Source: Frigoribacterium sp. Leaf8
GTDB lineage: Bacteria; Actinomycetota; Actinomycetes; Actinomycetales; Microbacteriaceae
DNA: 35,939 nt
Assembly (NCBI RefSeq): GCF_001421165.1
Contig: NZ_LMKB01000005.1
Location: 1,178,941 to 1,214,879, forward strand
Reading direction: 5' to 3'
Shown here in pieces: positions 24,674 through 32,594 of this stretch. The notes under the pieces are model-generated. The model saw only the letters and a list, made by a program, of their open reading frames with translations. It was not told the DNA's origin and did no database searches. Position numbers and translations under genes: made by a program. How positions within the stretch are numbered: the first letter of the stretch is position 1; each line of letters starts with the position of its first letter.

Positions 24674-26371
24674 CTACGCGCCCGTCACCTTCCCGGGGTT
24701 GAACACGCGCCCCGGGTCGGCCGAGTCGAACAGCCCCTGCATGACGGCCACGCCCTCGGGCGAGACGTCCTGCGCGAGCCACGGCTGGTGCTCGAGCCCG
24801 ACGCCGTGGTGGTGCGAGACGGTCGCCCCGGTGTCGATGAACGCCTGCTGGATGGCGTGCTTGACCACGTCGTACTCGGCCTCGGCGTCGTCACCGTGCT
24901 CGAAGGCGAAGGTGAAGTACAGGCACGCGCCCGAGTGGTACGAGTGCGACAGGTGGCCCATGATCCAGCCCTGCTTGCCGATGCTGTCGAAGGCCTGGTT
25001 CGCCGCGGCGTAGACGCGCGACGACACGAGGCGCAGCTTCGACCAGGGGGCGGCGGTCTCGGAGACGTCCGCCGCGCCTCCGTGGTCCATGAAGAAGTCG
25101 CGCAGGTAGGGCGTGTCGAACTTCTTCTGGTCGTAGAGCTTGCCCGGTCCCTTGCCGACGCTCATGCCCTTGTTCGCCTTGACGATCTTGGCGACGGCCT
25201 TCTGGGTGTGGGCGACGTGCTCGGGGCTGCCCTCGTAGCCGATGAACGACAGGCACATCGCGTCGACGTCCCAGCCCTTGGCCTTCAGGATGGTCGGCAG
25301 CAGGTCGGTGACCTTCTGCGAGATGCCCTTGCCCGGCTTCGACGTGGCGAACGAGAAGGCGGTCTCGTGTGCGTCGCTGACGCGGGTGACCGACGGGCTC
25401 ACGTCGCTCTCGGCGATGGCCTGCATGGCGGCGAGGCCGTCGTGCCACGACGGGAACAGGTAGGCGAGGATCTCGCGCTTCTCGGGCAGGCGGTGCACCT
25501 GGGCGGTGACCTCGGTGATGACGCCGAGACGTCCCTCGCTGCCGATGATCATCTCGCGCAGCGACGGACCCGTCGACGCGCTCGGCACGGCGCGGATCGA
25601 GAGCACGCCGCCGGGGCGCACGACCCGCAGCCCCTTGGTGATGTCGGCGATGTCGCCGTACTTGTCGCTCTGCATGCCCGACGAGCGGGTGGCGACCCAG
25701 CCGCCCATGGTCGAGTGGGTGAAGCTGTCCGGGAAGTGTCCGAGGGTCCACCCGCGGGCGTTGAGCTGCTCCTCGAGGTCTGGGCCCTGACCGCCGGCCT
25801 GGATGCGCGCCAGTCCGCCGTCCTCGTCGATGCCGAGCACCTTGTCGAGCCGGCCCATGTCGAGCGAGACGATCGTGCGCTCCTCCGCGGGCAGCGGTTC
25901 GAGGCTGCCGACGATGTTGCTGCCGCCGCCGAAGGGGATGAGGACGAGGTCGCTCGCGACGGCCAGGTCGACGATGCGCTGGATCTCGTCCTCGTCGGCC
26001 GGGTACACGACGACGTCGGGCACCCGGTCGAGACGTCCGGCGCGGATGCGGATCAGGTCGCGGATGCTCTTGCCGTAGGTGTGGACGACCCGGTCGTGGT
26101 CGTCGGTGACGACCTGGCCGTCGCCCACGATCTGCACGAGCGAGTCGAGCACCTCGGTGCCGACCCGGGACGAGGGGACGTCGAGGTCGTCGAACGAGAG
26201 GCCGGTGTCGTGCCCCTGGGACAGCTCGACGCCCACGATCTTCTTGACGAAGGGGGCGAAGGCGGGCTTGTCGTCGTGGTGGAAGGCGACGCCCTCGACG
26301 CCCCAGCCCCACCACTTCATGTGCTTGACGCCGTCGACGGCAGGACTCTTCTTCTGTTGGACGTCGGTCAC
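24674..26371 (-). CDS. agpS: Alkyldihydroxyacetonephosphate synthase (AGPS) homologue
   Basis: 565 residues, a flavoprotein of the VAO/FAD-PCMH family. AGPS exchanges the acyl chain of acyl-DHAP for a fatty alcohol and so forms the glycerol ether bond. Family marks include HMKWWGWG near the N-terminus (17-24), FAD loop PFGGGSNIVGS (146-156), GHFPDSFTHSTMGGWVATRS SGMQ-like segment, EMIIGSEGRLGVITE, the tyrosine region SHSYHSGACLYF (Tyr478) equal to the proposed catalytic Tyr of mammalian AGPS, and the triple His SHHHGVG (520-522). These last two separate it from D-lactate and glycolate oxidases. GTG start behind AAGGAG, overlapping the PlsC stop (GTGA). Third gene of the SDR-PlsC-AGPS unit. 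Confidence 0.88.
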   Translation of the reverse strand: MTDVQQKKSPAVDGVKHMKWWGWGVEGVAFHHDDKPAFAPFVKKIVGVELSQGHDTGLSFDDLDVPSSRVGTEVLDSLVQIVGDGQVVTDDHDRVVHTYGKSIRDLIRIRAGRLDRVPDVVVYPADEDEIQRIVDLAVASDLVLIPFGGGSNIVGSLEPLPAEERTIVSLDMGRLDKVLGIDEDGGLARIQAGGQGPDLEEQLNARGWTLGHFPDSFTHSTMGGWVATRSSGMQSDKYGDIADITKGLRVVRPGGVLSIRAVPSASTGPSLREMIIGSEGRLGVITEVTAQVHRLPEKREILAYLFPSWHDGLAAMQAIAESDVSPSVTRVSDAHETAFSFATSKPGKGISQKVTDLLPTILKAKGWDVDAMCLSFIGYEGSPEHVAHTQKAVAKIVKANKGMSVGKGPGKLYDQKKFDTPYLRDFFMDHGGAADVSETAAPWSKLRLVSSRVYAAANQAFDSIGKQGWIMGHLSHSYHSGACLYFTFAFEHGDDAEAEYDVVKHAIQQAFIDTGATVSHHHGVGLEHQPWLAQDVSPEGVAVMQGLFDSADPGRVFNPGKVTGA

Positions 26372-27348
26372 GGGCGTTCTCCTTCGAGCGGGTCTGACGG
26401 GCCCAGGATGCGGGCGGTGTTGGCGTCCTTCAGACGCAGGATCTCGGTGCGCACGCGCGTCGAGAAGTCGGTGACGGACTCGCCGTCGTGGGGCCGCATC
26501 GGGTCGCCGAACGCGACTCCGACGGGCAGTCGGCCGGGCCGGGGCCAGCTGCGGCCGCGCGGTTGGGCGATGTTGGCCCCGATCAGCGCGAGCGGCACGA
26601 CCGGCACGCCGCAGGCCGAGGCGAGGGCGGCGGCGCCGGGCTTGAAGGCGGCGACGGTGCCGTCCTTCGAGCGGGTGCCCTCGGGGAACACCAGCACGGG
26701 GTAGCCGCGCTGCAGCAGCGATCGAGCACTGACCGTGGGCTGCCCCTGGCGCCCGCGGGCGGCCGCCTTGGCCGCGGCGCGTCGGCGGGCCGAGCTCTGC
26801 GGCGTCGACCCCGCCGACGCACCGGACGAGGAGGCGCGGGTCGCGTCGACCGCGGAGGCCGGGGTCCCCGAGCCCCGCTGCACCGGGAACGCGTTGAAGA
26901 ACAGTTCGGTCAGCTGACGCCGCCAGGGCACGTCGAAGAAGTAGTCGGCCGCGGCGCCCGTGGCCAGGTAGCGCGCGAGCTTGCGCGGCAGGGCACCGAG
27001 GATGAGCGGCGCGTCCAGGTGGCTCGAGTGGTTCGCGACGACGATGAAGCCCCCGGTGAGGCCCTCGACCCGGTCGCGGTCGATGACCGTCACGTCGGTG
27101 ATCGACCAGATCGTCGGCTTGAGCACCATGCGCTGCGCGACGTAGCGGGCCATCGCGTGTCGCCGCGAGCTGAAGCGGTCGCGGACGTCGCTCGCGACGT
27201 CACCGGCACGCTGGGCGACTCCACCAGCACGCTGGGCGACGTCCCCGGCTCGCTGGGCGACGTCGGCCCTGACGTCGTCGACCCGCTGGGCCACGGCGTC
27301 GAGGCGGGCGTGGTCGCGGCGTCGTTCTCCGTCGTCCTTCACGCTCAC
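26368..27348 (-). CDS. PlsC-type glycerolipid acyltransferase with N-terminal amphipathic repeats
   Basis: 326 residues. The catalytic NHSSHLD (HX4D) lies near residue 93, with FPEGTRSKDG and VPLALIG following, as in 1-acyl-glycerol-3-phosphate acyltransferases. Two oddities: the N-terminus has three copies of a 7-residue VAQRAGD unit likely to form an amphipathic helix, and an Ala/Ser/Arg-rich insert of about 50 residues separates the first two acyltransferase blocks. A dispersed 10-mer (26830-26839) lies in that insert. In this operon it could acylate DHAP or the alkyl-glycerol-3-phosphate. GTG start at 27348 overlaps the SDR stop (GTGA). Not linked to a classical plsX/plsY locus. Confidence 0.85.
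   Translation of the reverse strand: MSVKDDGERRRDHARLDAVAQRVDDVRADVAQRAGDVAQRAGGVAQRAGDVASDVRDRFSSRRHAMARYVAQRMVLKPTIWSITDVTVIDRDRVEGLTGGFIVVANHSSHLDAPLILGALPRKLARYLATGAAADYFFDVPWRRQLTELFFNAFPVQRGSGTPASAVDATRASSSGASAGSTPQSSARRRAAAKAAARGRQGQPTVSARSLLQRGYPVLVFPEGTRSKDGTVAAFKPGAAALASACGVPVVPLALIGANIAQPRGRSWPRPGRLPVGVAFGDPMRPHDGESVTDFSTRVRTEILRLKDANTARILGPSDPLEGERP
27202..27264. repeat. 21-bp tandem repeat in the PlsC 5' end
   Basis: Three 21-bp units, each containing GCTGGGCGAC, start at 27202, 27223 and 27244, and encode the VAQRAGD repeats. Confidence 0.8.
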
Positions 27349-28124
27349 TGCCCCACCGGCTTGCGGCGGCTCGACGAGATCGCGCCGGACGCGGCCCGGA
27401 CGGCGCCCTTGGGGGCGTGCCGGACCAATCCCATCAGCACCTTGTACCGAAGCGTGGGCATGGAGATCACCTTGCCTTTGTCGACGTCGCGCAGACAGGC
27501 GACCACGAGTTGTTCGGTGCTGAGCCACAGGGCGTTGGGTATGGACGACGACTTTATGCCGGCACGCTGATGGAACTCCGTCCGCACCCAGCCCGGCAGG
27601 AGGGCCGTGACGCCCACGCCGGTGCCCTTGAGCTCGACCGAGAGACCCTCGCTGTACGAGGTCACCCACGCCTTGATCGCCGAGTAGCTGCCCATGGCCA
27701 TCAGCCCCGCGGTGCTCGACACGTTGACGATGCGACCGCGGCCGCGCTCGCGCATGGACCTCGCCGCCGCACCCGAGAGCACGAGCACGGCCCGGCACAT
27801 GACCTCGAACGCGAGGTCGTGCGCGGCGACGTCGGTGGAGGTCAGCGGGGTGTGCATGCCGAAACCGGCATTGTTCACCAGCAGGTCGACGGGGCGGGTC
27901 GGATCGGCCAGCCGCTCGGCCACCCGGTCGACGTCGCGACGGTCCCCGAGGTCGGCCGCGAGCACCTCGACGTCACGGCCGAGCGCGCGCAGGGCGGTCG
28001 CCGTCTCGTCGAGTCGGGTGAGGTCACGAGCGACCAGGACGATGTCCCAGCCGCGCATGGAGAGTTGGCGGGCGAATTCGGCTCCGATGCCGGACGTGCC
28101 CCCGGTGACGAGCGCTACAGCCAT
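27345..28124 (-). CDS. Short-chain dehydrogenase/reductase, candidate acyl/alkyl-DHAP reductase
   Basis: 259 residues, classical SDR. TGGTSGIG (8-15) binds NADP(H), NNAG follows, the catalytic Ser is in NVSSTAG and the YxxxK is YSAIK. The fold and the C-terminal basic tail fit Ayr1/DHRS7B-type acyl-DHAP reductases, and its position first in the SDR-PlsC-AGPS unit supports that role, though the substrate is inferred. The ATG at 28124 is chosen because TATCGT lies 7 nt upstream; a longer form from 28163 would run across that box. Likely leaderless. Divergent from the ferritin-like operon. Confidence 0.82.
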   Translation of the reverse strand: MAVALVTGGTSGIGAEFARQLSMRGWDIVLVARDLTRLDETATALRALGRDVEVLAADLGDRRDVDRVAERLADPTRPVDLLVNNAGFGMHTPLTSTDVAAHDLAFEVMCRAVLVLSGAAARSMRERGRGRIVNVSSTAGLMAMGSYSAIKAWVTSYSEGLSVELKGTGVGVTALLPGWVRTEFHQRAGIKSSSIPNALWLSTEQLVVACLRDVDKGKVISMPTLRYKVLMGLVRHAPKGAVRAASGAISSSRRKPVGQ

Positions 28125-28131
28125 GCCGCTT

Positions 28132-28137
28132 ACGATA
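28132..28137 (-). promoter_or_regulatory. -10 box TATCGT of the SDR-PlsC-AGPS operon
   Basis: On the minus strand TATCGT is followed by 7 nt and the ATG at 28124. It lies within the 98-bp space shared with the rightward operon. Confidence 0.5.
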
Positions 28138-28222
28138 CGGTGCTGAGAGCAGACTGCGCGCATCGAGACACGTTCGAGGCCCTTCTCGCCTCGTCCACTT
28201 CTGCCCCGGAGGACCCCCTGTC

Positions 28223-29044
28223 ATGACGACCAGAGATGCCCCGCGCGCCGACCCCGACTTCGACATCCGCGAGTTCACCAAGACGGCCCAGGGCAACTGG
28301 CGCCCCGACCTCGACCTGTCCGGCTTCGCCGAGCGCCCCCTGGGCCCCGACGCCCTGCGCCTCGTCCGCCATCTCGGCCGTCTCGAGAGCGCCACGATGG
28401 AGAACCTGCGCAACCTCCTGGTGACGGCCACCCACAAGGACACTCGGGTCACCGCGTTCCTCGTGACGTGGGCGTTCGAGAAGTTCTGGCTGGCCGACGC
28501 CCTCGACGCCGTCCTCGAGGCCCACGGCGAGCCCCGCAACCGCGACGTGACCGAGGGGCCCAAGCGTCACGCCGCCTCCGAGGCCGTCGAGCGCCGTGGC
28601 CCGATCACCCGGGCCCTCCAGGCCATCACCGTCGGGTCCCCCATCGTCGCCGTGCACACGACGACGGGAGCCGTCGACGAATGGGTGCTCCGAGAGGCAT
28701 ACGACCGCCTCGACGAGCTCGCGGCACACCCCACGCTGACCACCGTGATCGACCGGGCGAGGGTCGTCAAGGGTCGTCACGAGCAGTTCTTCGCGAGCGA
28801 GGCCGACTGGCGCCTGCGCGACTCGCGCCGGTCGGTGAAGATGACCCGCGCCTCCTTGCTGACGGCCGTCTGGCCGATCGGCGCCGTCGAGCGCGCCGAC
28901 TCCGAGCGCACCTTCTTCGACGCCACCGTCTTCGGCGGGGCCGAGGGCCACCTGCGCGCCGACCGCGTGGGCGCGCAGGTCGCCGACCTGCCGGGCCTGG
29001 ACGCCTCCGTCGGGGCGGCCGTGACCAGAAAGCTGACCGCATGA
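28223..29044 (+). CDS. Ferritin-like protein with degenerate di-iron site
   Basis: 273 residues, all-helical. It aligns without gaps over its first ~65 core residues with the intact paralogue at 31414-32250 (for example LRLVRHLGRLESATMENLRNLL against LRTLRYMADVEYHTVCYTRDLL, written here in parts only). Of the six expected metal ligands it keeps Glu55, Glu153 and His186 but has Lys87 and Leu90 in place of the first ExxH and Lys183 in place of the Glu of the second. It is therefore unlikely to bind two irons and may be a scaffold or partner subunit. GGAGGAC lies before the ATG. It overlaps the next gene by ATGA. Confidence 0.7.
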   Translation: MTTRDAPRADPDFDIREFTKTAQGNWRPDLDLSGFAERPLGPDALRLVRHLGRLESATMENLRNLLVTATHKDTRVTAFLVTWAFEKFWLADALDAVLEAHGEPRNRDVTEGPKRHAASEAVERRGPITRALQAITVGSPIVAVHTTTGAVDEWVLREAYDRLDELAAHPTLTTVIDRARVVKGRHEQFFASEADWRLRDSRRSVKMTRASLLTAVWPIGAVERADSERTFFDATVFGGAEGHLRADRVGAQVADLPGLDASVGAAVTRKLTA

Positions 29045-31392
29045 GCTCCACCCCCGGCCTCGCGCTGCCCGACCAGACCCCGGGTGCCACCCGAATCGAC
29101 CTCGGCGGCTCGCACGTCCTGCTCACCGGCGGCACCGGCTTCGTCGGCCAGGCGATCCTCGAGCGTCTGCTCTCGTCGCACCCCGGCACGACGGTCACGC
29201 TCCTCATCCGACCGAAGGCCGGCACCTCGGCCGAGGGGCGTCTGCGGCACCTGCTGAAGAAGCCGGTCTTCGCCTCGTGGCGCGAGGCCGTCGGGGCCGA
29301 GGGCGTCGAGAAGGCCCTCGCCGAGCGGCTCCGGGTGATCGAGAGCGGTCTGGGCGACCTGCCCGACCTGCCCGACGACCTCGACGTCGTCATCCACAGC
29401 GCGTCCACGGTGTCGTTCGACCCGCCGATCGACCAGGCCTTCGAGACCAACGTCGGCGGGGCGGTCGGGCTCTACGAGGCCCTGCGGAAGACGGGCACCG
29501 ACCCGCACGTCGTGCACGTGTCGACCGCCTACGTCGGCGGCATCCGCAAGGGCGTGTTCCCCGAGGCGTCGCTCGGCCACACCGTCGACTGGCGTGTCGA
29601 GCGTGCCGCCGCCGCCGACGCCCGCGCCCGGGTCGAGGCCGCCTCCCGCCAGCCCGAGACGCTGCGCACCTTCCTCGCCCAGGGTCGTGCGGCGCACGGC
29701 AAGACCGGCCCGCAGGCGGTCGCCACGGCCGCGGAAGACGCCCGCGTCGCCTGGGTCAAGGCCCGCCTCGTCGACTACGGACGCACCCGGGCCGAGACGC
29801 TCGGCTGGACCGACGTCTACACGCTGACCAAGGCCTTCGCCGAGCGCGCCGCCGAAGAGCTCTGGGCCGAGGCCGGGCACCGCCTGTCGGTCGTCCGACC
29901 GGCGATCGTCGAGAGCGCCCACCGGCACCCCTACCCCGGCTGGATCGACGGCTTCAAGGTCGCCGACCCGCTGATCATGTCGTACGCCCGTGGGCTGCTG
30001 CCCGAGTTCCCCGGCGTGCCCGACAGCGTGCTCGACGTGATCCCGGTCGACTACGTCGTCAACGTCATCCTCACCGTCGCGGCGAACCCGGTCGAGGCCG
30101 GCAGCCCCCAGTACTTCCACGCCAGCTCGGGCGGCAGCAACCCGTTCTCGATCCTGCGCATGTTCGAGAACCTCAAGGCGTTCTTCACGGCCAACCCGCT
30201 GCCCCGCGACGAGCACTCGTCGATCGAGGCGCCGCACTGGAACTTCCCGGGCGTGCGCAAGGTCGAGGGCGCCATCCGCACCGCGAACCGCGTCAACGAC
30301 GTCCGCGAGGCCGTGCTCACGCGACTGCCGAGCACGCTGCGCACCCGGACGGCGCTGGCCGGGGTCCAGACGCGGCGCGCCGACCTCGAGTCGCTGCAGA
30401 GCCTCACCGACCTCTACCGCCACTACGTGCAGTCCGAGATCATCTTCGACGACCGACGCACCCGGGCCCTGCACGCCGGACTCCCCGCGGGCTCGCCCGC
30501 CGACATCGGCTTCGACGTGACCGACGTCGACTGGGAGGCCTACTTCCAAGAGGTGCACTTCCCGTCCATCACCTCGATGACCCGGGCGTTCTCGGTGCGA
30601 CCCGCCGCGTCGGCCGTCGTCGCCGACACGCGGGCCCTGCCGCCGCGCGACGACGTCGTGGCCGTGTTCGACCTCGAGGGCACGGTGCTCGACAGCAACA
30701 TCGTCGAGCAGTACCTCTGGGTGCGCTCGGCCGGGTTCCGCAAGGCCGCCTGGCCCGGCGAGGTCGCCAGCCTGCTCACCTCGCTGCCGCGCTACCTCCG
30801 GGCCGAGGGTCGCGACCGCGGCGAGTTCATCCGCACGTTCTCCCGACGGTACGAGGGCATGCCCGTCGCGCGGCTCTCGGGCGTGGTCCGGTCACGCGGC
30901 TACGCCGACACGGTCCTGCGCCACACCCTCCCCGACGCGCTCGCCCGACTGGCCGAGCACCGTGCCGCCGGGCACCGCACGGTACTGGTCACGGGCTCGA
31001 TCGACACCCTGACGACTCCCCTGGCACACCTCTTCGACGACGTCGTCGCCAGCACGATGCACCAGCGCAGCGGCGTCTACACGGGTTACCTCGCACAGCC
31101 TCCGCTGGTCGACGAGGCCCGTGCCGCCTGGCTGCGCCAGTACGCCCAGGCGAACGACATCGATCTCTCGGGGTCGTACGGTTATGGTGACTCGTTCGCC
31201 GACCTCGCCTGGCTCGAGATGGTCGGCCACCCGAACGCGGTCAACCCCGACAGCAATCTGGCACGCGAGGCGCTCCGAAGAAGATGGAGCATCCGCGATT
31301 GGACTCGCAGCGGCCCCCACGGCAGAAGCGGCACCAGCACCACGAGCGGCACCAGCAGCACCACAGCGAAAGGAGACGGAGGCAGGGCCTGA
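29041..31392 (+). CDS. Fatty acyl-CoA/ACP reductase fused to a HAD-IB phosphatase
   Basis: 783 residues. The N-terminal ~500 residues are an NAD_binding_4-type extended reductase: TGGTGFVG (29-36), then the active-site YTLTK (Tyr260, Lys264), as in alcohol-forming fatty acyl reductases. The C-terminal domain (about 538-740) is a HAD-IB phosphatase: VFDLEGTVLDSN (Asp544; the usual second Asp is Glu546), TGS (651-653), then GYGDSFADLAWLE (Asp717, Asp721) and a PSP-like NPD. Alternative roles are aldehyde or alcohol production plus removal of a phosphate from a glycerol ether intermediate. The final 30 residues are Ser/Thr/Gly-rich. The ATG overlaps the upstream stop. Middle gene between the two ferritin-like genes. 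Confidence 0.85.
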   Translation: MSSTPGLALPDQTPGATRIDLGGSHVLLTGGTGFVGQAILERLLSSHPGTTVTLLIRPKAGTSAEGRLRHLLKKPVFASWREAVGAEGVEKALAERLRVIESGLGDLPDLPDDLDVVIHSASTVSFDPPIDQAFETNVGGAVGLYEALRKTGTDPHVVHVSTAYVGGIRKGVFPEASLGHTVDWRVERAAAADARARVEAASRQPETLRTFLAQGRAAHGKTGPQAVATAAEDARVAWVKARLVDYGRTRAETLGWTDVYTLTKAFAERAAEELWAEAGHRLSVVRPAIVESAHRHPYPGWIDGFKVADPLIMSYARGLLPEFPGVPDSVLDVIPVDYVVNVILTVAANPVEAGSPQYFHASSGGSNPFSILRMFENLKAFFTANPLPRDEHSSIEAPHWNFPGVRKVEGAIRTANRVNDVREAVLTRLPSTLRTRTALAGVQTRRADLESLQSLTDLYRHYVQSEIIFDDRRTRALHAGLPAGSPADIGFDVTDVDWEAYFQEVHFPSITSMTRAFSVRPAASAVVADTRALPPRDDVVAVFDLEGTVLDSNIVEQYLWVRSAGFRKAAWPGEVASLLTSLPRYLRAEGRDRGEFIRTFSRRYEGMPVARLSGVVRSRGYADTVLRHTLPDALARLAEHRAAGHRTVLVTGSIDTLTTPLAHLFDDVVASTMHQRSGVYTGYLAQPPLVDEARAAWLRQYAQANDIDLSGSYGYGDSFADLAWLEMVGHPNAVNPDSNLAREALRRRWSIRDWTRSGPHGRSGTSTTSGTSSTTAKGDGGRA

Positions 31393-31404
31393 GCCCGCGC
31401 CTCC
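31378..31404 (+). promoter_or_regulatory. Intra-operon hairpin at the reductase/ferritin-like junction
   Basis: GGAGGC-A-GGGC (31378-31388) pairs with GCCC and GCCTCC (31393-31404) around CTGA, which holds the stop codon. The right arm is a copy of the dispersed 10-mer. The following ATG at 31414 lacks a good ribosome site, and AGGAG-like sequence lies inside or before the stem. Confidence 0.5.
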
Positions 31405-31407
31405 TGA
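31393..31407 (-). repeat. Dispersed 10-mer between reductase and ferritin-like genes
   Basis: GCCCGCGCCTCCTGA, a minus-orientation copy in the 21-bp intergenic space. Confidence 0.75.
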
Positions 31408-31413
31408 CAACAC

Positions 31414-32250
31414 ATGGCCTTCGACATCGACAAGTTCGCCGCGACCTCCGAACGCCTGAGCTGGGACGACCTCGACCTCGACCACTTCCGGAAGAACCCG
31501 CTCTCGGCCGACTCGCTGCGGACGCTGCGCTACATGGCCGACGTCGAGTACCACACGGTCTGCTACACCCGTGACCTCCTCACGACTCCTTCTCACAAAG
31601 AGAACGAGATGACCACGTTCATGACGATGTGGAACCGCGAGGAGTTCTGGCACGGCGAGGCCCTGGCCGCGATCCTCGAGGTCCACGGCATCACGGTCGA
31701 CTACGACCAGCTCCGCGCGAACCGGCTCAAGCTCGGCTGGCGTGAGCGCCTCGACCCGGTCAAGCAGGGTCTGCTCGGCAAGATCGTCGGCTCGGACTTC
31801 GTCGCCGTCCACATGTCGTGGGGCGCGGCCAACGAGTACTCGGCCGTGTCGGCGTACAAGCGCATGGCCGAGCTCGAGCAGGACCCGGTCCTCGCCGAGC
31901 TGCTGAAGCGCATCGCCAAGCAAGAGGCCCGCCACGTGGCGTTCTACGTCTCGCAGGCCCGTGAGCGTCTGCTCGCGAGCAAGAAGGCGCAGAAGCTGAC
32001 GCGGTTCCTGCTGTCGAAGGTCTGGGCCCCGGTCGGCTCGTCCATCATGGAGGTCGACGACGTCAAGTTCGTCTTCGGCCAGCTGATGAGCGGCGAAGAG
32101 GGCCGCAAGGCGGCCGTCAAGCTCGACCAGAACATCTCGAACCTGCCGGGCATGAGCGGTCTGACGATCTTCCAGAAGGCCCTCGACGGCCTGGGCATCC
32201 GCGCGGACTCGGTCGGCGGCTCCTCCGCCGGTTCGGTCGCCACGGCGTGA
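31414..32250 (+). CDS. Ferritin-like di-iron protein (acyl desaturase/oxygenase-like)
   Basis: 278 residues, helical. It has a full carboxylate-bridged di-iron set: Glu45, then ExxH at Glu77/His80 (EEFWH), Glu141, and a second ExxH at Glu171/His174 (EARH). This E, ExxH, E, ExxH order is shared by acyl-ACP desaturases, aldehyde-deformylating oxygenase and related enzymes. Two Lys-rich helices and a Ser/Gly tail follow. In this operon the likely substrate is an acyl or alkyl chain: candidate roles are formation of a vinyl ether, desaturation of the fatty chain, or aldehyde oxygenation. Which one is unknown. The ATG at 31414 has no good ribosome site, but a hairpin and translational read-on from the reductase could serve. 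Confidence 0.8.
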   Translation: MAFDIDKFAATSERLSWDDLDLDHFRKNPLSADSLRTLRYMADVEYHTVCYTRDLLTTPSHKENEMTTFMTMWNREEFWHGEALAAILEVHGITVDYDQLRANRLKLGWRERLDPVKQGLLGKIVGSDFVAVHMSWGAANEYSAVSAYKRMAELEQDPVLAELLKRIAKQEARHVAFYVSQARERLLASKKAQKLTRFLLSKVWAPVGSSIMEVDDVKFVFGQLMSGEEGRKAAVKLDQNISNLPGMSGLTIFQKALDGLGIRADSVGGSSAGSVATA

Positions 32251-32594
32251 AGACCAGCCACCTGAGGCACTTCCTGGTCGCGGCCGACGTGCTGCACTTC
32301 CCGGTGGCGGCCGACAAGCTCGGCATCTCGCGGCAGAAGCTCGAATCGTCGATCGAGGCCCTCGAGCTCGAGTTCGGTGCGAAGCTGTTCGACCGCGACG
32401 TCACGCCGTACCGGTTGACCAAGGCCGGCAAGGCGGCGGTGGTCGTCGCCGAGGACGAACTGGCGAGTCCTTCCACCCCGACCCCGCCGCCACCCCCGCC
32501 GGCCGGCGGCAAGGCCAAGGCGTCGAAGGGCAAGGGCCGTACGCCCGCCGTCAAGGGCCAGCCCAAGCCGTTCAAGAAGCGCCAGGGCCGCTAG
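32247..32594 (+). CDS. Mini-LysR: HTH_1 domain with basic tail, no effector domain
   Basis: 115 residues. The first 65 are a LysR-type winged helix-turn-helix (LRHFLVAADVLHFPVAADKLGISRQKLESSIEALELEFGAKLFDRD...YRLTKAGKA). Instead of the usual ~200-residue ligand domain, the rest is a Pro-rich stretch and a Lys/Gly-rich basic tail (GGKAKASKGKGR). GTG start overlaps the preceding stop (GTGA-type), so it is made with the di-iron protein and may regulate the shared promoter. Not a frameshift remnant: no LysR effector-domain sequence is seen downstream. Confidence 0.75.
   Translation: MKTSHLRHFLVAADVLHFPVAADKLGISRQKLESSIEALELEFGAKLFDRDVTPYRLTKAGKAAVVVAEDELASPSTPTPPPPPPAGGKAKASKGKGRTPAVKGQPKPFKKRQGR

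Follow-up and report, generated by a model that had tools for sequence, protein, structure and literature searches.

Organization of the gene cluster

The DNA analysed here is a 35,939-nucleotide stretch, hereafter called the window, from the 3.33-Mb genome of Frigoribacterium sp. Leaf8 (family Microbacteriaceae), corresponding to positions 1,178,941 to 1,214,879 of the forward strand of contig NZ_LMKB01000005.1. It contains a divergent gene cluster that is a candidate for the biosynthesis of ether lipids, probably of the plasmalogen type. A preliminary description of this DNA had proposed seven genes in two divergent operons, and all seven are indeed present. On the reverse strand, a short-chain dehydrogenase/reductase (SDR) gene (27345 to 28124, 259 amino acids) is followed by genes for a PlsC-type acyltransferase (26368 to 27348, 326 amino acids, GTG start) and for a homologue of AGPS, the alkyl-dihydroxyacetone phosphate (alkyl-DHAP) synthase (24674 to 26371, 565 amino acids, GTG start). 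The forward strand carries genes for the ferritin-like protein F1 (28223 to 29044, 273 amino acids), a fusion of a fatty acyl reductase (FAR) with a HAD-IB phosphatase-like domain (FAR-HAD; 29041 to 31392, 783 amino acids), a second ferritin-like protein, F2 (31414 to 32250, 278 amino acids), and a small LysR-like protein, mini-LysR (32247 to 32594, 115 amino acids). The 4-bp overlaps noted previously are real and occur at four junctions (SDR/PlsC, PlsC/AGPS, F1/FAR and F2/LysR), with FAR-HAD and F2 being instead 21 bp apart. The two groups diverge from a spacer, assigned to neither strand, that presumably holds their promoters (28125 to 28222). Its length of 98 bp agrees with the shared promoter region that had been suggested, but a search of the spacer for a sigma-70-like promoter found none. 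The genes are considered real because orthologues occur in the same order across many genera.

Conservation and probable movement of a six-gene block

When titled genome contigs were scanned with aligned F2 sequences, 325 relatives were obtained, of which the best 80 loci were kept. The ranking was made against another F2 of the same family (locus L021), and the 80 loci are a non-random sample. The conserved unit consists of AGPS, PlsC and SDR on one strand and F1, FAR-HAD and F2 on the other. All six genes are present in 60 of the 80 loci, 58 of which have the gene order of the window, such that co-conservation holds for six of the seven genes originally grouped together. In another four loci (L068, L088, L092 and L129) the set is incomplete and lies at the end of a contig, and one (L139) carries FAR-HAD, a PlsC and F2. 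At the thresholds used, four loci have only F1 and F2, and eleven have only F2, although one of the latter (L115) is a 4.3-kb contig that also has an F1-like frame and part of FAR. AGPS was sought in the genomes of the other 14 of these 15 loci. Nine have an AGPS of 61-66% identity elsewhere in the genome, the sole match for L137 is 36% identical, and genome searches for L111, L113, L131 and L138 found no AGPS.

A sample of 150 genomes from the family was then scored for AGPS of this clade (above 500 bits), FAR-HAD and F2 (above 300 bits), which are found in 40, 41 and 44 genomes, respectively. AGPS and FAR-HAD occur together in 40 genomes and are both missing from 109. AGPS never occurs without FAR-HAD, and in the single genome with FAR-HAD alone (G107), F2 and FAR lie where a contig begins. 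FAR-HAD and F2 are likewise found together in 39 genomes and are both absent from 104, with FAR-HAD alone in two and F2 alone in five (Fisher p = 5e-28, uncorrected for kinship). The two genomes with FAR-HAD but no F2 (G101 and G113) are 85 and 77% complete; in G113 the contig ends within FAR, and the G101 locus lacks F1 and F2. Among the tabulated genera that include both states, the presence of F2 tracks that of FAR-HAD within g9, g17 and g76, but not within g22.

The mini-LysR gene is not part of this unit. Its product has only an HTH_1 domain in Pfam, and the gene is present in all three genomes examined from the genus of the window (the window, L173 and L174) and absent from L175, the sole nearby genome of another genus examined. 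At lax settings, the only match above 30 bits in the 80 loci (38% identity, at 13584-13772 of L065) lies outside the operon. The gene was therefore dropped as a conserved operon member, being found only in the genus of the window.

The block is also found in Streptomyces, Phytoactinopolyspora and one Ruaniaceae genome. In the F2 tree, whose bootstrap support is not fully settled, these sequences fall beside those of Schumannella, Naasia and Amnibacterium, respectively. We also built seven gene-segment trees from 34 of 35 hand-picked loci, with L123 dropped since its AGPS is broken in two pieces. The distances of these trees agree moderately (r of 0.43 to 0.85) and lack a housekeeping control, and thus only nearest neighbours were used. 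The Ruaniaceae genome is nearest to Amnibacterium or to L110 in six of the seven trees, Streptomyces is nearest to Schumannella in four, and Phytoactinopolyspora is nearest to Plantibacter in three, while the same three loci (L118, L125 and L132) are nearest to the window in six. In addition, Streptomyces sp. NBC_01450 has a complete six-gene set on a plasmid of 2.35 Mb (L186, NZ_CP109481.1) that has been typed as mobilizable. The plasmid collection record lists no genes in this operon stretch.

Enzymes of the probable ether-lipid core

The AGPS homologue carries the Pfam domains FAD_binding_4 and FAD-oxidase_C. It matches the solved alkyl-DHAP synthase of Dictyostelium (2uuu) with an E-value of 1.5e-118 (400 bits) and the peroxisomal enzyme (4bby) with an E-value of 9.7e-85 (288 bits). 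The tyrosine and triple-histidine motifs of AGPS are catalytic, and the corresponding SHSYH and SHHHG stretches of the window protein, which had been recognized from the sequence at the outset, align to those of the Dictyostelium enzyme. Across the 80 loci, some of which have no AGPS, there are 47 matches to the SHHHG-type motif and at least 57 to the SHSYxxG-type motif. The domains themselves are generic to oxidases that use flavin adenine dinucleotide (FAD), and GlcD-like NCBIfam models match below their cut-offs, as might be expected if the protein were a general FAD-linked oxidase akin to D-lactate or glycolate oxidases, with ether lipids not being formed. Given that the best oxidase structure other than AGPS scores just 84 bits (E-value of 9.9e-23) and that both motifs recur across loci, this explanation is extremely unlikely, and a plain FAD oxidase was rejected on the scores.

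The remaining core proteins have assignments compatible with the other steps of ether-lipid formation. The PlsC protein has an Acyltransferase domain (PF01553, E-value of 4.1e-20) with NHSSHLD and FPEGTRS motifs and is a candidate DHAP (or sn-2) acyltransferase. The SDR has an adh_short domain (PF00106, E-value of 7.1e-42) and is a candidate acyl/alkyl-DHAP reductase. FAR-HAD matches NAD_binding_4 (PF07993, E-value of 6.8e-46) and a HAD model (PF12710, E-value of 1.1e-28) above cut-off and PF03015 below it; we take the combination of PF07993 and PF03015 to mark alcohol-forming reductases. In its C-terminal part (30613 to 31392 of the window), HAD motif I, whose usual form is DxD, reads DxE in 29 of 29 motif matches over the 80 loci.

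Some loci carry additional genes. The Subtercola-type loci L136 and L179 have a gene with a diacylglycerol kinase domain after F2 (L136:10879-11982 and L179:12709-13824) as well as a second PlsC-like gene between FAR-HAD and F2. A LarA-like gene also lies between FAR-HAD and F2 in L136, the locus checked for this feature.

The ferritin-like pair

Database searches place neither ferritin-like protein in a known family. With Pfam and NCBIfam models, F2 has no match above cut-off and only sub-threshold Pfam matches, including one to the acyl-ACP desaturase family PF03405 (21.0 bits, below the gathering cut-off of 22.7), and F1 has no Pfam match at all. A search of PHROGs with both proteins gave nothing useful. 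The ligand residues are more informative. Soluble di-iron desaturases have the ligand pattern E, ExxH, E, ExxH, and F2 conforms to it with E45, E77xxH80, E141 and E171xxH174. In a hand-picked alignment of 52 F2 sequences (L052, L056 and L057 were left out, their reading frames not being located), H80, E141, E171 and H174 are invariant, and 51 sequences have E45 and E77.

In contrast, three of the six di-iron ligands are lost in all 40 aligned F1 sequences (the window and 39 of 67 extracted sequences). Position 77 is lysine in 38 and arginine in two, position 171 is lysine in 37 and arginine in three, and position 80 is never histidine. The basic residues that replace the ligands at positions 77 and 171 are thus conserved. 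Because positions 77, 80 and 171 are replaced, F1 should hold no normal di-iron site. Of the two ferritin-like proteins initially noted, then, F2 has an intact ligand set, whereas F1 is a degenerate paralogue, and only F2 can hold such a site. Judged from these substitutions, we read F1 as a presumed structural or regulatory partner subunit of F2.

AlphaFold2 models of F2 and F1 have pLDDT values of 85.0 and 92.6, respectively. Foldseek searches with the F2 model list acyl-ACP desaturases and R2lox as the nearest folds in the PDB, with TM-scores up to 0.61 at 13-17% identity and with weak E-values. The F1 model has the same nearest folds, again with weak E-values (best 5.0e-3).

The proximity of a reductase and a ferritin-like di-iron protein is reminiscent of the cyanobacterial hydrocarbon route, which consists of an acyl-ACP reductase and an aldehyde-deformylating oxygenase. 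If FAR and F2 formed such a route, AGPS would be a mere neighbour. However, the edge of one contig is the only place in the family sample where AGPS and FAR-HAD are separated, no aldehyde-deformylating oxygenase is among the 50 listed of 280 Foldseek matches of F2, and the PF07993 and sub-threshold PF03015 matches of FAR presumably indicate the alcohol-forming type. A hydrocarbon product is therefore very unlikely.

Searches for known vinyl-ether enzymes

Two protein families associated with vinyl-ether formation were sought in 26 genomes, including those of the window and Subtercola vilae. The PF10520 model (CarF/PEDS1 desaturase) has no match in any of the 26, a set that includes no control match, which accords with the earlier remark that no CarF/PEDS1 homologue is apparent in the window. 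The model does match elsewhere, as shown by a widened search that found it in 18 of 396 Actinomycetota genomes. Seventeen of these 18 matches are in one family outside the class of the window (genomes including G614, G769, G807 and G660; loci L202 and L204-L207), and four 19.5-kb stretches around Actinomycetota matches contain no AGPS or FAR-HAD. These proteins may be of either the CarF or the FAD4 type, true CarF being reported solely from the Cystobacterineae and Leptospira in the available review text (PMC9702350, PMC9131029).

PF09989 (PlsA-type, DUF2229) is absent from the window genome and from S. vilae, while 4 of 14 control genomes match. Its one occurrence among the 26 genomes is in Ruaniaceae bacterium KH17 (L126 and L140), which carries the operon as well as a 1511-amino-acid open frame with a strong PF09989 match. 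This organism possibly has two vinyl-ether routes, judging from its genes.

Correspondence with published lipids

Dimethyl acetals are the signature of plasmalogens on acid methanolysis. Their occurrence in aerobic actinobacteria has been recorded since 2000 (Mannisto et al., as cited in PMC5945732 and PMC7472656). An open-access literature search found no paper that names genes for these products, nor any that joins plasmalogens with a ferritin-like desaturase in bacteria or with CarF in aerobic actinobacteria. The accessible data of one report tabulate dimethyl acetals in S. vilae DB165, S. frigoramans, S. boreus and S. lobariae, which are all four of the species tabulated, and those of S. 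vilae DB165 are iso-16:0 (17.0%), anteiso-15:0 (3.2%) and anteiso-17:0 (1.9%) (PMC5945732). The genome of S. vilae DB165 carries the whole gene set (L136), and F1 and F2 are present in 12 of 12 Subtercola genomes. Because S. vilae DB165 has dimethyl acetals but no match to PF10520 or PF09989, an enzyme encoded by the operon is the economical source of the vinyl ether. A plasmalogen product, which had been raised as a possibility, thus gains support from a strain that has the operon, while F2 as the responsible enzyme is a proposal from its sequence and context.

Fatty acid records might conceal further examples. In the aerobic bacterium Kineococcus rubinsiae, gas chromatography-mass spectrometry is stated to have identified anteiso-15:0 dimethyl acetal where the MIDI system had called C14:0 2-OH (PMC7472656). 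Four Subtercola type strains are listed with 3.9-15.6% 2-OH C14:0, and others have reported dimethyl acetals in those species (PMC9287328). In the genus of the window, Frigoribacterium faeni is listed with 17.0% C14:0 2-OH (PMC7033078). Anteiso-15:0 aldehyde/dimethyl acetal is given for F. adelgis D8 and, from earlier work, for F. faeni, but not for two other species (PMC12823222). C14:0 2-OH is not diagnostic by itself, since sphingomonads list it as a major acid.

Proposed pathway and its difficulties

The AGPS-route core is well supported by the sequence comparisons and very probably forms an ether-lipid pathway. In the proposed scheme, FAR-HAD would reduce acyl-CoA or acyl-ACP to a fatty alcohol, and PlsC would acylate DHAP. 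AGPS would then exchange the acyl group for the fatty alcohol to give alkyl-DHAP, and the SDR would reduce this to 1-alkyl-glycerol-3-phosphate, which could enter normal phospholipid synthesis. Finally, F2, assisted by F1 as a partner subunit without metal, might form the vinyl ether by oxidizing C1'-C2' of the alkyl chain. On balance we favour the interpretation that the six genes encode an aerobic pathway of this kind, most likely for plasmalogens, in which F2, helped by F1, serves as the vinyl-ether desaturase. Taken separately, a plasmalogen product with F2 as its desaturase has a slightly better than even chance of being correct.

Several observations weigh against this interpretation, the main difficulty for a strict single pathway being that F1-F2 pairs exist without the core. 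Within the family sample, five of the 44 genomes that carry F2 (G102, G079, G025, G142 and G057) have F1 and F2 but no FAR-HAD; four of these have no AGPS match at an E-value of 1e-30, and one has only a 36%-identical match. F2 therefore either serves some purpose independent of this AGPS or is a remnant in these genomes, and the pair is not strictly tied to the ether-lipid pathway. Thus AGPS orthology and co-conservation uphold the original idea of one pathway for the core, whereas the membership of F1-F2 is less strict. A hand count over 394 genomes of the class (F2 above 300 bits, close AGPS above 600 bits) gave 22 with both genes, 15 with AGPS only, 11 with F2 only and 346 with neither, and hence the link is looser outside the family. 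Thirteen of the 15 AGPS-only genomes belong to one genus (g133), the others being G168 and G356. A second AGPS-like protein of roughly 35-40% identity is common in the class. A Jiangella-type genome (G208) has FAR-HAD, SDR, PlsC and AGPS in one cluster and F2 elsewhere (L160 and L161), and Jiangella has no F1 match. The structural matches of F2 are also weak, with a best E-value of 2.2e-3 and none at or below 0.001.

The lipid records raise similar doubts. Dimethyl acetals are on record from few taxa, and they are matched with the genes in one and the same strain solely for S. vilae DB165, which is not the strain of the window. S. endophyticus is reported without 2-OH C14:0 (PMC9287328), yet F2 is in every Subtercola genome examined. 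The accessible part of PMC12823222 lists C14:0 2-OH separately from aldehyde/dimethyl acetal, which is a poor fit to simple relabelling. Agreia is said to have little dimethyl acetal (PMC5945732). As far as the lipid records go, Frondihabitans is said to lack dimethyl acetals but to have 14:0 2-OH (PMC5945732), in Lacisediminihabitans profunda 14:0 2-OH does not exceed a trace (PMC7033078), and a Salinibacterium report includes none among its major acids.

In an alternative interpretation, the AGPS-PlsC-SDR-FAR core would make saturated alkyl ethers only, with F1-F2 carrying out another di-iron reaction on acyl chains (such as desaturation of branched acyl-ACP) and being co-selected, and with the dimethyl acetals coming from an unrecognized source. 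The five family genomes just described are consistent with this arrangement, as are Agromyces terreus, A. salentinus and Leifsonia sp. Leaf264, which have F1-F2 without any AGPS match (FAR-HAD was sought here in the fetched stretch only). The converse also occurs, with the core lacking F1-F2 in L157 and L176 and AGPS-PlsC-SDR standing alone in L156; F2 is absent from all three genomes. Moreover, the nearest folds listed for F2, which count in favour of both interpretations, are acyl-ACP desaturases and R2lox. However, 39 of the 41 genomes with FAR-HAD in the family sample also have F2, dimethyl acetals occur in S. vilae DB165 without either known vinyl-ether family, and the pair-only F2 sequences branch inside the operon F2 sequences, beside the clade of the window, as expected after loss of the core. 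We thus regard this alternative as a serious but rather unlikely one.

Other separated genes were also recorded. The genomes of the F1-F2 pairs at L111, L113, L138 and L164-L167 contain no close AGPS, and FAR-HAD is likewise missing, from the whole genome for L164-L167 and from the fetched stretch for L111, L113 and L138. When lipid genes were sought around F1-F2-only pairs, a flavin reductase was recognized by Pfam near the L167 pair and a similar open reading frame near L113, but not near all pairs. An AGPS homologue of 58-60% identity at L153-L155 and L184 (family f25, genus g133) has no partner genes in the fetched stretch, and that of L153 adjoins a tetrapyrrole-methylase-type gene.

If the plasmalogen interpretation is extended, F2 and its dead paralogue F1 might represent a third, independent solution to vinyl-ether formation, namely a soluble di-iron delta-1' desaturase with carboxylate ligands and no kinship to either membrane CarF/PEDS1 or anaerobic PlsA/PlsR. 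This solution would then occur widely in aerobic actinobacteria, the six genes having travelled together as a block, and anteiso-15:0 dimethyl acetal would have been mistaken for 'C14:0 2-OH' in some of their fatty acid tables. We consider the odds of this broader proposal to be even.

Comparison with known systems

The operon is a concrete genetic candidate, in a culturable type strain, for the recorded dimethyl acetals of aerobic actinobacteria. If F2 is the desaturase, an unrelated scaffold has given rise to vinyl-ether formation once more, and, being soluble, the enzyme would be more tractable than PEDS1. Plasmalogen capacity could then be read more easily from actinobacterial genomes. AGPS homologues already serve as markers of the capacity for alkenyl ethers in metagenomic data (PMC11868695). 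Subtercola is not named in the main text of two plasmalogen reviews from 2022 (PMC9702350, PMC9131029), and the available portions of all three papers make no mention of F1- or F2-like proteins.

The same reviews assign PlsA/PlsR to anaerobes and facultative anaerobes, among them some actinobacterial orders, and place CarF in Leptospira and the Cystobacterineae, which are aerobic myxobacteria (PMC9702350, PMC9131029). The anaerobic PlsA/PlsR system likewise yields 1-alk-1'-enyl lipids, but it is described as doing so by direct reduction of ester lipids (PMC9702350). The animal peroxisomal pathway of FAR1, GNPAT, AGPS, acyl/alkyl-DHAP reductase and PEDS1 has the same order of steps for the ether core. 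However, PEDS1 is a histidine-rich membrane enzyme, whereas the window encodes a soluble, carboxylate-type di-iron candidate and has HAD fused to FAR (PMC9131029).

Among the systems described there, the core is most closely related to that of Myxococcus xanthus, which has genes for AGPS, FAR, an acyltransferase, a dehydrogenase and a HAD protein. This organism (MXAN_1676-1674, the elb operon and CarF) is also aerobic and combines an AGPS homologue, a FAR-like domain, an acyltransferase, an NAD-dependent dehydrogenase and a HAD protein (elbB) with a plasmalogen product (PMC9131029). It differs in having other fusions and another gene order, in forming the vinyl ether by the membrane desaturase CarF, whose family is unmatched in the 26 genomes examined here, and in that the available text names no F1- or F2-like proteins (PMC9131029). 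Finally, F2 has the E, ExxH, E, ExxH ligands of the soluble acyl-ACP desaturases (PF03405) and R2lox and may share their helical di-iron fold (TM-score up to 0.61), but it is set apart from them by its identity of 13-17%, its score below the Pfam cut-off and its pairing with a dead paralogue.

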